Shown here piece after piece: positions 14,959 to 20,834 of a stretch of 64,000 nt of DNA; within the stretch, counting starts at the first letter, position 1, and each line of letters begins with the position of its first letter. The translations under genes and the position numbers were made by a program. The stretch comes from Hyphomicrobiales bacterium (lineage in GTDB: Bacteria > Pseudomonadota > Alphaproteobacteria > Rhizobiales > Rhizobiaceae), in contig UEHQ01000007.1 in assembly GCA_900489925.1 (NCBI GenBank), positions 1 through 64,000 of the forward strand, given 5' to 3'. Below the pieces are notes generated by a model. It did no database searches. It was not told where the DNA came from and saw only the letters and a list, made by a program, of their open reading frames with translations.

Positions 14959-16290
14959 CTATTCCCAGTCTTCGCGCCGCGCCTTGGGACCATTGCCCAG
15001 GCGACGCTCGAGTTCGGCGGCTTCCGTTTCCGACAGGCGGACGTCGAGCGTGATCGAGCCGTCTTCCATGTCCTCGCGACCGTCGATGATAGCGTGATCG
15101 TAGAGCCACGGCAGCAGGGCAAGCTTGTCGACGGGTAACGTGACCGTGGTTTCGGTCAACACACCGGAAAGCCTGCGGCTGATCTCGTTCATCAGACGAT
15201 CGATGCCCTCGCCGGTGACCGCGGAAACAGCAACGACGTTTGCTACTCCCTCCGCCTTCTGCACGATAGCTTCGTGCACTTCCGGCTCGAGACGATCGAT
15301 CTTATTCCAGACCTCGATGATGCGCTTTTCGCCCTCGGCCTCATCGATGCCGAGATCCTTGAGGATACGCAACACGTCGGCGCTCTGCGCCTGGTTGTCG
15401 ACATCGGACATGTCACGAACGTGCAGAACGAGGTCGGCCTCCAACACTTCTTCCAGCGTCGCTCGGAAGGCTGCCACGAGATGCGTCGGCAGGTCTGAAA
15501 TGAACCCGACCGTGTCGGAGAGAATCACCGTGCGGCCATGCGGCAGCTTCATCCGGCGCAGCGTCGGATCGAGCGTCGCGAACAGCATGTCCTCGGCCAG
15601 CACGCCGGCGCCGGTAATGCGATTGAACAGCGTCGACTTGCCGGCATTGGTATAACCGACCAAGGCCACGATCGGGTGCGGCACCTTCTTGCGCTTGGCG
15701 CGATGGAGCTGGCGCGTGCGCACCACCTGCTCAAGCTCGCGCTCGAGCTTGATGATGCGGTCCTGCAGCATGCGTCGGTCGGCTTCGATCTGGGTTTCAC
15801 CCGGACCACCCATGAAACCGCCACCACCGCGCTGGCGTTCCAAGTGGGTCCAGCTGCGAACCAGCCGGCCCTTCTGGTAATTGAGGTGTGCGAGGTCGAC
15901 CTGCAGCGTACCTTCCTTGGTGGAAGCGCGCCGGCCGAAAATTTCGAGAATGAGGCCGGTACGGTCGATGACCTTGGCGTTCCATTCCTTCTCGAGATTG
16001 CGCTGCTGAACCGGCGTCAGCGGATGATCGACGATGACAAGACCGGAGTCGTTCTCGTCGAGGGACGCCTTGATTTCTTCGAGCTTGCCCGTGCCCATCA
16101 ACGTCGCCGGACGCGGATCGTTGACCGGCACGATGACGCCGTTCACCACATCGAGGTCGATCGCCTGTGCGAGGCCGATTGCCTCTTCAAGGCGGCTTTC
16201 CGGCGTGCGGGTGACAGCCTGCTGGCCGTCGGAAGCACTGCGTCCACCGCGGCTCTTCTTGAGAACGGGCACGATGACAGTCGCGCGCAT
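14959..16290 (-). CDS. hflX: GTPase HflX
   Basis: A 443-residue ribosome-associated GTPase that splits stalled or idle 70S ribosomes under stress. The N-terminal HflX domain includes the glycine-rich QRGGGGFMGGPGETQIEADRR stretch in outline (about 180-200), followed by a coiled helix pair. The G domain has G1 GYTNAGKST, G3 DTVGF, and G4 NKID. The frame is open upstream to the hfq stop, but without a standard start codon, so ATG 16290 is used. It lies 77 bases after hfq, the classic hfq-hflX order. Confidence 0.95.
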   Translation of the reverse strand: MRATVIVPVLKKSRGGRSASDGQQAVTRTPESRLEEAIGLAQAIDLDVVNGVIVPVNDPRPATLMGTGKLEEIKASLDENDSGLVIVDHPLTPVQQRNLEKEWNAKVIDRTGLILEIFGRRASTKEGTLQVDLAHLNYQKGRLVRSWTHLERQRGGGGFMGGPGETQIEADRRMLQDRIIKLERELEQVVRTRQLHRAKRKKVPHPIVALVGYTNAGKSTLFNRITGAGVLAEDMLFATLDPTLRRMKLPHGRTVILSDTVGFISDLPTHLVAAFRATLEEVLEADLVLHVRDMSDVDNQAQSADVLRILKDLGIDEAEGEKRIIEVWNKIDRLEPEVHEAIVQKAEGVANVVAVSAVTGEGIDRLMNEISRRLSGVLTETTVTLPVDKLALLPWLYDHAIIDGREDMEDGSITLDVRLSETEAAELERRLGNGPKARREDWE

Positions 16291-16367
16291 ATCATCCCGG
16301 TGCTTTGCTGCTTCCGGGATGATCGAATCATTCTTGGTATCGCGTGTCGAGATAACGGCTTGTCCTG

Positions 16368-16610
16368 TTAGGATGCGGCTTCTTCGCTCTCGAACATCTG
16401 CATCGGCTGGCCGGGCATGATCGTCGAGATTGCGTGCTTATACACGAGCTGCGAGTGACCGTCACGGCGAAGCAAAACGCAGAAATTGTCGAAAGACGTA
16501 ACAACGCCCGTCAGCTTTACACCGTTGATAAGAAAAATTGTCAGTGAAATCTTTTGCTTGCGAACAGTATTGAGAAATAGGTCCTGCAAATTCTGAGAAC
16601 GTTCCGCCAT
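16368..16610 (-). CDS. hfq: RNA chaperone Hfq
   Basis: An 80-residue Sm-like protein that forms a hexameric ring and pairs small RNAs with mRNAs. The Sm1 motif ([21 protein letters not shown]) and Sm2 motif ([10 protein letters not shown], the usual 'YKHAIST') are intact, as is the N-terminal QNLQDLFLN that binds U-rich RNA. The C-terminal tail is short, as usual in alphaproteobacteria. It precedes hflX and lies downstream of the decayed aminotransferase gene and ntrX. Confidence 0.97.
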
Positions 16611-16720
16611 CGCGCCGCTTCTTTCTTTATTGCCGGCTCGGTTTCGCCGGTGAAATACTAATCAACCTCGCCAGTAGGCAGCCGACAACCCTCATCCCCT
16701 CTGCCCAGAAAGTCTTGGTA

Positions 16721-17160
16721 TCAAATCGCAATCTTTTCCGCAACGTCGAAAAAGACCTCCCGAATTTTATGGGAGACACTGCCGGGATGTCCGTTGGCGA
16801 TTGCCTACCCGTCGATGGAAACCAGTGGGAAGCAGATACTCGTCTCAGCTTTGATGAGGGCCCTCCCGCGCAGCCAACATTTCGGCGACCGAGAATTTGC
16901 GCTCTTCGATCTTCAATCCTAGCTTGGCGCCTTCGCGATGATCGAGGGGTGGTGCTTTTTGCCCTGACCACGAGCTAGGGCGGCGTGGCGTTGGCGAGAA
17001 ACACAGGGCAGCTGCACGCGATGCCGCGGGTGATCTGCGGGTAGGACAGTCCATGCGCATACGGATTGCGGTGCAACGTCTCGCGAATCACCGGGGTCAG
17101 CTCGTTGCCGCTTATGGGCTAGGCAATGCGTAGCTCGCTCAGCGAGCGCCATTATCGACG
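16721..17160 (-). pseudogene. Decayed D-amino-acid aminotransferase gene (dat)
   Basis: This roughly 580-base gap between ntrX and hfq has no intact gene, but pieces of a D-alanine aminotransferase read through it in order on the minus strand. They are LSELRIA-stop-PISGNELTPVIRE, then YPQITRGIA, then FLANATPP-stop, then GLKIEERKFSVAEMLAARE, then after a frameshift near 16860 TSICFPLVSIDG-stop-AIANGHPGS, and finally HKIREVFFDVAEKIAI before TGA at 16721. The start is missing beyond about 17160 and the middle, including the pyridoxal-lysine region, is deleted. At about 440 bases it is half the size of a whole gene. An intact homologue in this position is known in related rhizobia. Bases 16627-16720 show nothing further. 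Confidence 0.82.
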
Positions 17161-17178
17161 GCTGGAAAGGCAAATGGC

Positions 17179-17201
17179 GGACGGCGCGGATGGCGCCGTC
17201 C
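17179..17201 (-). terminator. Hairpin after ntrX
   Basis: GGACGGCGC (17179-17187) pairs exactly with GCGCCGTCC (17193-17201) around a 5-base loop, nine bases past the ntrX stop. The T tract on the minus strand is weak, so termination may be partial. Confidence 0.6.
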
Positions 17202-17209
17202 CGGGGGTA

Positions 17210-18574
17210 TCAGACGCCGAGCGATTTCAGCTTGCGATGAAGCGCCGAACGCTCCATGCCGACGAACTCGGCGGTGCGCGAGATGTTGCCGCCAAAGCGG
17301 TTGATCTGCGCGATCAGATAGTCCTTCTCGAACATTTCGCGCGCTTCGCGAAGCGGCAGCGTCATGATGTGGTAGTCGTTCTTCGCCGACACCTTCGGGA
17401 GCATGTCGCCGAGATCGGTCGGCAGCATCTCCGCCGTAATCGGCGCATCCGGACCGTCCGAACGCGCAAGGATCATCAGTCGCTCGATATTGTTGCGAAG
17501 CTGGCGAATGTTGCCCGGCCAGTCGTGCGCCTGGAGGACAGCCATGGCGTCATCACCGATCCGCCGCGGCCGGATGCCTGCCTGCTCGGAAATCTGCCGC
17601 ATGAGCTGGTCGACCAGAAACGGGATGTCCTCGCGACGCTCTGCCAGGGCCGGAACCTTGACCGGCACCACGGCAAGCCGGTGATACAGATCCTCACGGA
17701 ACCAGCCTTCGGCAATACGGCTTTCCAGATTATAGGCGGTGGACGAAACGATGCGGACATCGACCTTCACGCGCTTTGAGCCGCCAACCCGCTCGAACTG
17801 TTGGTCCACGAGGACGCGAAGGATCTTGTTCTGCGTCTCGCGCGGCATCTCGCCGACTTCATCGAGATAGAGGATGCCGCGGTGGGCTTCTTCTAGCGCG
17901 CCGATCTTGCGCGCCTGCCCCGGTCCGCCTTCCGTTCCGAAAAGCGCGACCTCCATGCGGTCGGGCGTGATGTTTGCCGCGTTGATGGCGACGAAGGGGC
18001 CGTTGGCGCGCGAAGACCGCTTGTGGATCATGCGCGCCACGAGCTCCTTGCCGGAGCCGGAGGAACCGAAGATCATGATGCGGCTATTGGTCGGCGACAC
18101 CTTCTCGATATTCTGGCGCAGCTGCGAGACCGCGACAGACGTGCCGATCAGCTCGACGGGGTCGCCGGCCTTGCGCTTGAGCTCGGACACTTCGCGCTTG
18201 AGCTTGGAGTTTTCCAGCGCCCGCTCGGCAATCAGGATGAGCCGATCGGCCTTGAATGGCTTCTCGATGAAATCGAATGCGCCGCGCTTGATCGCCGAAA
18301 CCGCCGTCTCGATGTTGCCGTGGCCGGAGATCATGACCACCGGAATATCCGGATGGCGGGTTTTGATCTCGTCCAGCAAGGAAAGGCCGTCGAGCTTGCT
18401 GCCCTGCATCCAGATATCGAGGAAGATCAGCCGCGGGGCGCGATCGGAAATTGCCGCGAGCGCACTGTCGCTATCGTGCGCCGTGCGTGTCTCGTGTCCC
18501 TCGTCGGACAGAATGCCGGAGACAATCTCGCGAATGTCGTGCTCATCGTCGACGACCAGAATATCAGAGGCCAT
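17210..18574 (-). CDS. ntrX: Nitrogen/redox response regulator NtrX
   Basis: A 454-residue regulator, the partner of NtrY. The receiver domain (1-120) has phospho-acceptor D53 in LIFLDIWMQG. The AAA+ domain (about 140-370) has Walker A GSSGSGKELVA and Walker B LYLDEVGEMP. The C-terminal helix-turn-helix is Fis-like (ISRTAEFVGMERSALHRKLKSLGV). The sigma-54 contact loop, normally GAFTGA, is replaced by sequence around FGTEGGPGQARKIG, as is usual for NtrX, so it may not act as a sigma-54 activator. The start at ATG 18574 overlaps the ntrY end by 11 bases and has AAGGAAAG upstream. Confidence 0.95.
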   Translation of the reverse strand: MASDILVVDDEHDIREIVSGILSDEGHETRTAHDSDSALAAISDRAPRLIFLDIWMQGSKLDGLSLLDEIKTRHPDIPVVMISGHGNIETAVSAIKRGAFDFIEKPFKADRLILIAERALENSKLKREVSELKRKAGDPVELIGTSVAVSQLRQNIEKVSPTNSRIMIFGSSGSGKELVARMIHKRSSRANGPFVAINAANITPDRMEVALFGTEGGPGQARKIGALEEAHRGILYLDEVGEMPRETQNKILRVLVDQQFERVGGSKRVKVDVRIVSSTAYNLESRIAEGWFREDLYHRLAVVPVKVPALAERREDIPFLVDQLMRQISEQAGIRPRRIGDDAMAVLQAHDWPGNIRQLRNNIERLMILARSDGPDAPITAEMLPTDLGDMLPKVSAKNDYHIMTLPLREAREMFEKDYLIAQINRFGGNISRTAEFVGMERSALHRKLKSLGV

Positions 18575-20834
18575 ATGCGCTTTCCTTGTCATTTGCGGCC
18601 GGAGCGGCGGGTGTTGTTTCCACGCGTGGCAGATGCACGCGGATCATCGCCCCTCGCCCTCGGTCAAAATCGGTGGGCGCATCGTGTAGCTCGAGCTGCC
18701 CGCCATGTTCCTCAATAATCTTCTTCACGATGGCGAGGCCGAGGCCCGTGCCCTTTTCTCGCATCGTCATGTAGGGCTCCAGGATGCTGTGGCGATTTTC
18801 CACCGGCAACCCTCTGCCGTTGTCGATCACATCGACGGTAAAGCGGTCGCGTGCTGCGTCGAGCGACGCTCGCACCAGCACCTTGCGCTCGTCTCGTTCT
18901 TCGAGCGGCACCGTTTCGATTGCTTCCACGGCGTTCTTGATCAGATTGCCGAACGCCTGACCAAGCATGCGGCTGTCGAATTGGCCTTCCAGCGGCGTGT
19001 CTCCCAGCTCCTGCAAGAAGGCGACGTGGCTGTTGCCCATTTCGCGGAGGAAGACCGCATCGTGGAGGATCTTGCGCAGGTCGCTCGGCTCCTTGATCGG
19101 CTTCGGCATACGCGCGAAGGACGAGAACTCGTCGACCATGCGCCCGATGTCACCGACCTGACGGATGATGGTTTCGGTGCACTGATCGAAGACGCCGCGA
19201 TCCGCCTGGTCGATCTGCTTGCCGTAGCGGCGCTGGATGCGCTCGGCGGAGAGTTGGATCGGCGTTAGCGGGTTCTTGATTTCGTGGGCGATGCGTCGCG
19301 CCACGTCGCCCCACGCGGTCGAGCGCTGCGCGATCACCAGATCGGTGATGTCGTCCAGCGTGATGACATAGGATTCGCTAGCGTCGCGGACTTCCTCACG
19401 GGTCACCTGGACGCTGAGGGTCCTGACCGTTCCGCCACGAACCAGCGCAATCTGCTTGCGGAAATCGCCGCGATAGCGGGTTGCCGCCTCCGTCAGGACC
19501 TGGTCAACCTCGGGCGCGATTTCAGAGACCAGCTTGCCGAGCATCTCGGCTGCGGGCAGCGCCATCAACGCTTCAGCGGAGCTGTTGACGATCGTTATAC
19601 GACGATCGTGTTCGACACCGATAACCGCGGCCGTGACACCCGAGAGAACGGCTTCGATGAAGCGGCGACGATCGTCTACCTCGTCCTTCGCTTCCAGAAT
19701 CTCGTCACGCTGCGTGCGAATTTCCGAGATCATCTTGTTGAAAGTGCGAGAAAGATTGGCAACGTCGCCATCCACCGCATGCACGGGAACGACGATATCC
19801 ATGTTGCCGGAGGCGACATTGTCGGCGGCGGTGATCAGCAGCCGGATCGGGCGGACGATACGGTCGGCGACCGCGATCGCGGTCCAGATGGCGGCCAGCA
19901 GCACGATCAGGGCGAAGCCGATGTAGAGAACCGCAAAGGCGATCTGCAGCGAGAACCGCCCCGACTCCATAGACTGATATTCGGTGGCGTTCTCCTCCAT
20001 CATGCGCATCGCGGTCATGACTTTCGGATCGACCGCTCGCACCGTGTAGAGGTAGGCCCCATCGATTGCTTCAAGCTTGATGATGGCGCCCACGAGATTG
20101 GTCACGCCCGGCGGTATCAGCGTGGGTTGACCGGCCGCAGCCTTGTTCAGTGCGTCCTTGGGTATGGCCGGCAGGGGCTTTTCGGTCTTGATATCGGCCT
20201 GCGCGAGAACGGAACCGTCCGCCCGCACAAGAAATGCGCCAAGAAGGCCGCGCCCACGCGCCTGACGCGTCATCAAATCGGCAAAGCCCGTGCGATCGAG
20301 GCTGTAGCGCTGCCGGTTGCGCTCGAGATCGTTTGCCATGGAAACCGTCTGCCCCTGGAGGTAGCTCGCGTTTTCCATCATGTAGGCTTGCCCGATATTC
20401 CGGGAGGAACTGACGATCGACTGGGTCCGTAAGGCAAACCAGCGGTCGAGGCCGGCATTCAAGGTGATACTGGCGAAGATGGCGACGAGAATTGCCGGCG
20501 TGATCGCGACGAGCGAAAACAGCACGACAATGCGAATGTGAAGCCGGGCGGCAGCACGACCGCGCTTACGTGCCTTGACGAGGCGCAACACCTCGCGCCC
20601 GATCAGAGCCATGAGCCCGAGAACGAAGAACGAATTCACGACCACCGAGGTGATGACGACCTGCGACGTCGGCGCGATCGGCGTCAGCCCCAGCAGCACA
20701 AACAGCGTCATCGTTGCGCAAAGCAGTGCGCCCCCGGCAAGCACCAGACCGGGCAGAGCAAACAGCGCACGGCGATCGGTAACGGTCGTGATCGACTCGT
20801 CTTCGGCCGCCGGCGGCACCGCATCCTGCTTCAT
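18564..20834 (-). CDS. ntrY: Sensor histidine kinase NtrY
   Basis: A 756-residue membrane kinase. Three N-terminal helices (about 24-50, 58-80, 101-125) precede a periplasmic domain, and a further helix at about 298-322 leads to HAMP (about 320-375). A PAS domain (about 385-500) follows, then a HisKA domain with HEIKNPLTPIQLSAERIQRRY (phospho-His), and a HATPase with NLIKNAVEAIE, DNGRGLP and GTGLGLAIVKKI. The family senses nitrogen status or redox state and phosphorylates NtrX. A hairpin and AAGGAG site lie directly upstream of ATG 20834. Confidence 0.95.
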   Translation of the reverse strand: MKQDAVPPAAEDESITTVTDRRALFALPGLVLAGGALLCATMTLFVLLGLTPIAPTSQVVITSVVVNSFFVLGLMALIGREVLRLVKARKRGRAAARLHIRIVVLFSLVAITPAILVAIFASITLNAGLDRWFALRTQSIVSSSRNIGQAYMMENASYLQGQTVSMANDLERNRQRYSLDRTGFADLMTRQARGRGLLGAFLVRADGSVLAQADIKTEKPLPAIPKDALNKAAAGQPTLIPPGVTNLVGAIIKLEAIDGAYLYTVRAVDPKVMTAMRMMEENATEYQSMESGRFSLQIAFAVLYIGFALIVLLAAIWTAIAVADRIVRPIRLLITAADNVASGNMDIVVPVHAVDGDVANLSRTFNKMISEIRTQRDEILEAKDEVDDRRRFIEAVLSGVTAAVIGVEHDRRITIVNSSAEALMALPAAEMLGKLVSEIAPEVDQVLTEAATRYRGDFRKQIALVRGGTVRTLSVQVTREEVRDASESYVITLDDITDLVIAQRSTAWGDVARRIAHEIKNPLTPIQLSAERIQRRYGKQIDQADRGVFDQCTETIIRQVGDIGRMVDEFSSFARMPKPIKEPSDLRKILHDAVFLREMGNSHVAFLQELGDTPLEGQFDSRMLGQAFGNLIKNAVEAIETVPLEERDERKVLVRASLDAARDRFTVDVIDNGRGLPVENRHSILEPYMTMREKGTGLGLAIVKKIIEEHGGQLELHDAPTDFDRGRGAMIRVHLPRVETTPAAPAANDKESAYGL

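Follow-up and report, generated by a model that had tools for sequence, protein, structure and literature searches.

A decayed D-amino-acid aminotransferase gene between ntrX and hfq keeps a conserved 3' tail that may act as a promoter of hfq

What occupies the interval between ntrX and hfq in a Rhizobium-like genome, and why does one short part of it look so well kept? We addressed this question in a window of 64,000 nucleotides (positions 1 to 64,000 of contig UEHQ01000007.1, assembly GCA_900489925.1) from a 6.09 Mb draft genome in 75 contigs, whose NtrX is 93-98% identical to the proteins of named loci, mostly Rhizobium, among the best 25 matches. The minus strand of the window reads ntrX, a 599-base interval, hfq and hflX:

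17210..18592, minus strand: ntrX (460 aa), the upstream gene (open reading frame, homology, S. meliloti annotation)
16368..16610, minus strand: hfq (80 aa), the next gene downstream (open reading frame, homology; name from the annotated S. meliloti record)
14959-16290, minus strand: hflX, the gene downstream of hfq

The annotated S. meliloti record has the order ntrX, trkA, D-amino-acid transaminase, hfq and hflX. The trkA gene also lies between ntrX and the transaminase gene (dat) in the Shinella record and follows ntrX in the Agrobacterium locus L095; it is missing from window positions 17210-16610 and from the same place in L038-L062. According to an excerpt of PMC2848018, a few rhizobia lack trkA or SMc01047 homologues between ntr and hfq.

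A sequence-only reading of the interval had placed a decayed D-amino-acid aminotransferase gene there and had proposed a frameshift-aware search as the check. This search recovered the gene: alignment of the minus strand from 17209 to 16611 with three intact Rhizobium Dat proteins gave scores of 316, 318 and 337, against a mean of 33 and a maximum of 46 for 30 shuffles of the same DNA scored with the first of the three proteins. The matched span covers Dat residues 55-287 (window positions 17148-16724) and is followed by the stop codon at 16723-16721. Of the 142 residues that align, 100-104 are identical. Its parts are as follows:

16721..17148, minus strand: dat pseudogene, residues 55-287 plus stop, about residues 128-218 deleted (tblastn, frameshift-aware alignment, codon-position mismatches)
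16943..17148, minus strand: 5' block, about residues 55-127, with stop codons starting at 17121 and 16977 (frameshift-aware alignment)
16744..16942, minus strand: 3' block, from about residue 219, with a frameshift near 16861 and a stop at 16807 (frameshift-aware alignment)

The start codon and the first 54 codons are gone, in-frame stops stand at residues 64 (codon start 17121), 112 (16977) and 260 (16807), and the alignment calls for two or three frameshifts (near 16951-16931 and 16861), the number varying with the reference protein. The central deletion removed about 91 codons (about residues 128-218) and with them the lysine of DIKSVGLLPN, which we take, from fold-IV aminotransferases, to be the PLP lysine. 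The reading from the letters had named stop codons, a frameshift, the missing 5' end and the deletion with the cofactor lysine. The pieces had also been described as lying in order across two frames; the order held and the frame count was slightly off, as tblastn without frameshift handling returned three pieces, each in a frame of its own (residues 59-131, 222-241 and 243-287). The copy in the window has neither a single open frame with a start codon nor the PLP-binding lysine, and its homology is significant, in order and at the ancestral place. It is a pseudogene, not an enzyme. It shares location and residue order with the D-amino-acid transaminases of NF005209/PF01063 (SMc01047 beside hfq in S. 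meliloti) but, unlike an intact member, has no start, carries three stops and frameshifts, and has lost the catalytic lysine region.

In a draft assembly of 75 contigs, such a pattern could in principle arise when an intact gene is sequenced or assembled wrongly. We consider this extremely improbable: in this one gene the 5' end is gone, about 91 codons are deleted, three stops interrupt the reading and the frame shifts two or three times. Second-position changes are also raised, and dat is absent from five other branches of the tree described below. With the last 11 codons left out, divergence from eight intact genes is 24-27% for the remnant, compared to 18-22% among the intact genes at the same sites. 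Second-codon-position mismatches between the remnant and the intact genes amount to 11.6-15.4%, and third positions contribute 58-66% of the remnant mismatches vs 72-80% of those between intact genes. Because second-position changes are raised and the third-position share is lowered, the substitutions indicate relaxed constraint rather than one sequencing slip.

The sequence-only reading had also taken a fold-back of terminator sequence next to ntrX as the left edge of the loss:

17179..17201, minus strand: 9-bp hairpin directly after ntrX (folding; similar folds in intact relatives)

Within the first 50 nt after ntrX, 111 of 132 relatives with intact dat have a fold of -10 kcal/mol or lower. 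Because most intact relatives have such a fold, the hairpin does not mark the edge of the lesion, and this part of the reading falls. A terminator scan listed no stem with a T-run. A repeat search of 16500-17300 returned nothing of 12 bp or longer, a limit under which the 9-bp hairpin falls, and an Rfam scan of 16200-17400 gave two weak matches, both far below gathering scores.

As had been stated from the sequence, related rhizobia have an intact gene at this location. We found it in 62 of 80 named loci containing NtrX (61 full genes plus L114, a locus that ends inside the gene), and the canonical dat is present in 132 of 148 Rhizobium genomes, missing in 15 and without a match in one that is 82% complete. 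The two samples overlap (L038 is the interval of G152 and L043 that of G015). The ntrX-hfq intervals of the 15 loss genomes are short or carry remnants. A tree built from the ntrX, hflX and hfq genes of 147 Rhizobium genomes and eight outgroup loci shows six changes in the state of dat, with a direction that the method itself does not give: in G110/G111/G169, in G147/G159, in G161, in a clade of seven around G015, in G000 and in G152. We read these changes as losses because most of the genus and most outgroup loci have dat, and because dat remnants persist in G000 and G152. Thus, the sampled genus has lost this gene about six times; the loss proposed from the sequence stands, its lineage-specific character does not.

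The loss had further been expected to affect the supply of D-alanine or D-glutamate unless another copy exists, and a search for another dat gene uncovered two. The genome encodes five class IV aminotransferases by PF01063. Two of them are intact, divergent, predicted D-amino-acid transaminases (hereafter Dat2; P0002 and P0003, contigs C60 and C26) that are 43% and 41% identical to the canonical Dat. Both pass the NCBIfam NF005209 cut-off (382.6 and 395.9 vs 320 bits) and carry the catalytic motif DIK(S/T) with its lysine, as DIKT. Both miss the equivalog cut-off of TIGR01121 (231.0 and 246.6 vs 277.45 bits), as does the canonical Dat P0001 (258.6). Two alanine racemases (alr) score above the TIGR00492 cut-off and one glutamate racemase (murI) above that of TIGR00067, for which a second match lies below the cut-off. 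With two intact Dat2, two alr and one murI in the genome, a shortage of D-Ala or D-Glu is unlikely.

The second Dat is not peculiar to this genome. One is present in 15 of 15 loss genomes (37-43% identity) and in 24 of the 132 intact genomes (hand count). A Fisher test of Dat2 against dat loss, which ignores kinship, gives 2e-10. Of six pairs that are independent on the tree, 4-5 combine Dat2 with loss and none shows the opposite pattern (sign test, median p 0.0625), so that the tree-corrected support for the association is only suggestive. Both enzymes coexist in 24 genomes, so the presence of Dat2 does not suffice for the loss of dat. The Dat2 proteins of the loss genomes fall on separate branches of the Dat2 tree, and the copies of G000 and G152 are 93.9% identical over 2,363 bp vs 85.5% over 2,688 columns of ntrX, hflX and hfq, which suggests that the Dat2 shared by these two genomes was gained by lateral transfer. 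At a stricter cut-off (E<=1e-60), which may miss weak Dat2 copies, a hand count of 141 genomes of the family gave 70 with canonical dat (a total that includes a partial G247 and G226 at 54%), 52 with only the divergent kind and 19 with neither. Four of the 70 also have a second Dat, and 8 of the 19 are genomes of at most 2.0 Mb.

These patterns are probably best explained by decay of dat under relaxed selection after the gain of Dat2, with the tail of the gene kept as a start signal for hfq. A divergent Dat2 would be gained elsewhere in the genome and would cover the housekeeping role, which would relax selection on the copy between ntrX and hfq and let it decay by point mutation and deletion. 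Plain neutral loss, in which murI and alr already supply D-Glu and D-Ala and the co-occurrence of Dat2 is incidental, is the less likely account in our judgment, with perhaps a minor share of the probability. It is compatible with the presence of murI and two alr, with a phylogeny-corrected test short of significance (p 0.0625) and with the 19 of 141 family genomes that have neither enzyme at E<=1e-60, yet it leaves to chance the presence of Dat2 in 15/15 loss vs 24/132 intact genomes and the zero discordant pairs. Decay after Dat2 gain resembles gene displacement by a divergent homologue, in that genomes with a degraded or missing old copy carry a divergent member of its family. It differs in that an intermediate stage is visible here and substitution of Dat by Dat2 in the cell is putative.

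The sequence-only reading had recognized the pseudogene, the lost PLP-lysine region and the intact relatives and had overlooked that decay spares the 3' tail. This tail contains the following element:

16719..16743, minus strand: dat tail element TTGCGGA-N9-GATTTGATA, comprising last codons and stop, a putative core of the hfq promoter (conservation)

The location given is the only exact match to this pattern in the genome. Compared with four intact relatives, the remnant has an identity of 72-76% in its body (residues 1-128 and 220-262), 76-88% at residues 263-276 and 94-100% over the final 11 codons and the stop. The spacer between dat and hfq is 86-96% identical, and the brief stretches that align within residues 129-219 (6-22 bases) are likewise well conserved; hence conservation near hfq is not confined to the tail.

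Codon usage in intact genes revealed a constraint on the tail beyond the protein code. Relative codon diversity, a measure that takes in only the genomes with the commonest residue at each codon, was 0.00 in the last nine codons of the 132 intact dat genes, compared to a mean of 1.01 (sd 0.20) over all nine-codon windows and a lowest value of 0.69 away from the tail. A single codon is used at 278-280, 282-284 and 287, and the stop is TGA in 132 of 132 genes. Codon 285 shows minor variation, also among the genomes of its Thr minority, which write it ACT (39), ACC (3) or ACA (1). The tail is therefore constrained as DNA across the 132 genomes.

The element also persists where dat is lost. It is present in 132/132 intact and 15/15 loss Rhizobium genomes, its end lying 103-112 nt upstream of the hfq ATG. 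Among named loci, it is found in 16 of 18 with a loss or remnant, Agrobacterium included (the exact pattern is missing from L067 and L117), and in 55 of 61 others that include hfq (missing from the intact L093, L108, L111-L113 and L115). Although spacers of 4-14 nt were allowed, all 71 matches have 9 nt; the bases of the spacer differ in Agrobacterium and other named loci and its length is kept. As the search pattern fixes the two halves, their invariance is not itself evidence, and what the search contributes is the presence of the element at this location and its spacing. Twelve of 60 further family genomes have the exact element. In the 48 that do not, the codon diversity of the tail is 0.62, second lowest of 270 windows, and the constraint thus appears weaker there. 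By eye, most other family members (L329-L378) carry a left half similar to TTTTTTGAC(G/A)TTGCGGAAAA and a different right half (CCTGATAACC, CCTGATACC or CCTGTTAACC). Family members whose dat-hfq spacer has a canonical TTGAC promoter had been considered as a negative control. This control was dropped, because a regular expression matched 0 of the 60 genomes and their tails are partly constrained.

The simplest reading is that the tail of dat doubles as a promoter of hfq, presumably of sigma-70 type, and that decay and deletions halt at the last 10-11 codons because the same DNA would hold the hfq start signal. This signal would consist of the TTGCGGA and GATTTGATA blocks, with a constant gap of 9 nt between them and their end 103-112 nt ahead of the ATG. 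Rather than a promoter core, the tail could also contain a site that binds a regulator or an element of the hfq leader RNA, and hfq is reportedly autoregulated in S. meliloti; a 2011 study by Sobrero and Valverde is said to report this and may describe or map the promoter. The element has no clear likeness to TTGACA-TATAAT, and a simple consensus scan leaves it unlisted. We regard a regulator or RNA site as the less likely choice: two short blocks with a constant 9-nt gap and varying spacer bases suit a -35/-10 pair, as does their location 103-112 nt before the start codon. An excerpt of PMC3616915 describes the -10 region of S. meliloti sigma-70 sites as poorly conserved, and its authors speculate that one motif class represents RpoD genes with a conserved TTG and without other features. 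The excerpted main text of that paper leaves hfq unmentioned, and an excerpt of PMC4201532 contains nothing on the hfq promoter. An excerpt of PMC2848018 reports complementation of an S. meliloti hfq mutant by hfq with 571 nt of upstream DNA. The S. meliloti dat ends about 100 nt before hfq, so this fragment should span its 3' end, a result that fits a promoter in the tail and does not localize it. The same scan listed a promoter-like site just upstream in the remnant (16793-16764, minus strand, CGGACA-18-TAAAAT).

If the tail is the hfq promoter, its overlap with dat would fix where deletions can end, and each lineage that swaps enzymes would therefore keep the same short fossil. We find it somewhat more plausible than otherwise that this applies across Rhizobiaceae, with the last dat codons doubling as hfq promoter and lineages that have swapped enzymes retaining a dat fossil that drives hfq. 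Like other promoters inside the 3' end of an upstream gene, the candidate lies in a coding tail under DNA-level constraint upstream of the gene it would serve. Unlike them, it has survived several independent losses of the gene that contains it.

A literature search retrieved no paper on this pseudogene, on recurrent loss of dat with a spare enzyme or on an hfq promoter inside dat. The case is well supported but modest, and its kinds are familiar: pseudogenes, genes displaced by a homologue, and promoters that lie inside the gene before. What it adds is that a lone pseudogene becomes a repeated natural experiment, in which dat disappeared about six times among the sampled Rhizobium genomes with a spare copy present each time, and that what survives each loss points to a likely control element of hfq, a global RNA regulator of rhizobia. 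Deletions of dat in rhizobia thus call for caution, as they could damage the expression of hfq.

The Dat2 genes have neighbors of their own. In the loci that we inspected, these are transport or catabolic-looking genes. The Dat2 of contig C60 (L121) adjoins a Beta-lactamase2 family protein (Pfam) and, by eye, the end of an apparent ABC transporter ATPase, neighbors that are perhaps for peptides containing D-amino acids. In L118, L131 and L132, the Dat2 loci of G110, G147 and G161, the gene stands beside a LamB/YcsF family member (Pfam match run on L131 alone, with the same DLNCDMGESFGAYKIGD start in L118 and L132). We take this family to function in the use of 5-oxoproline, and its proximity suggests a link between Dat2 and that pathway.
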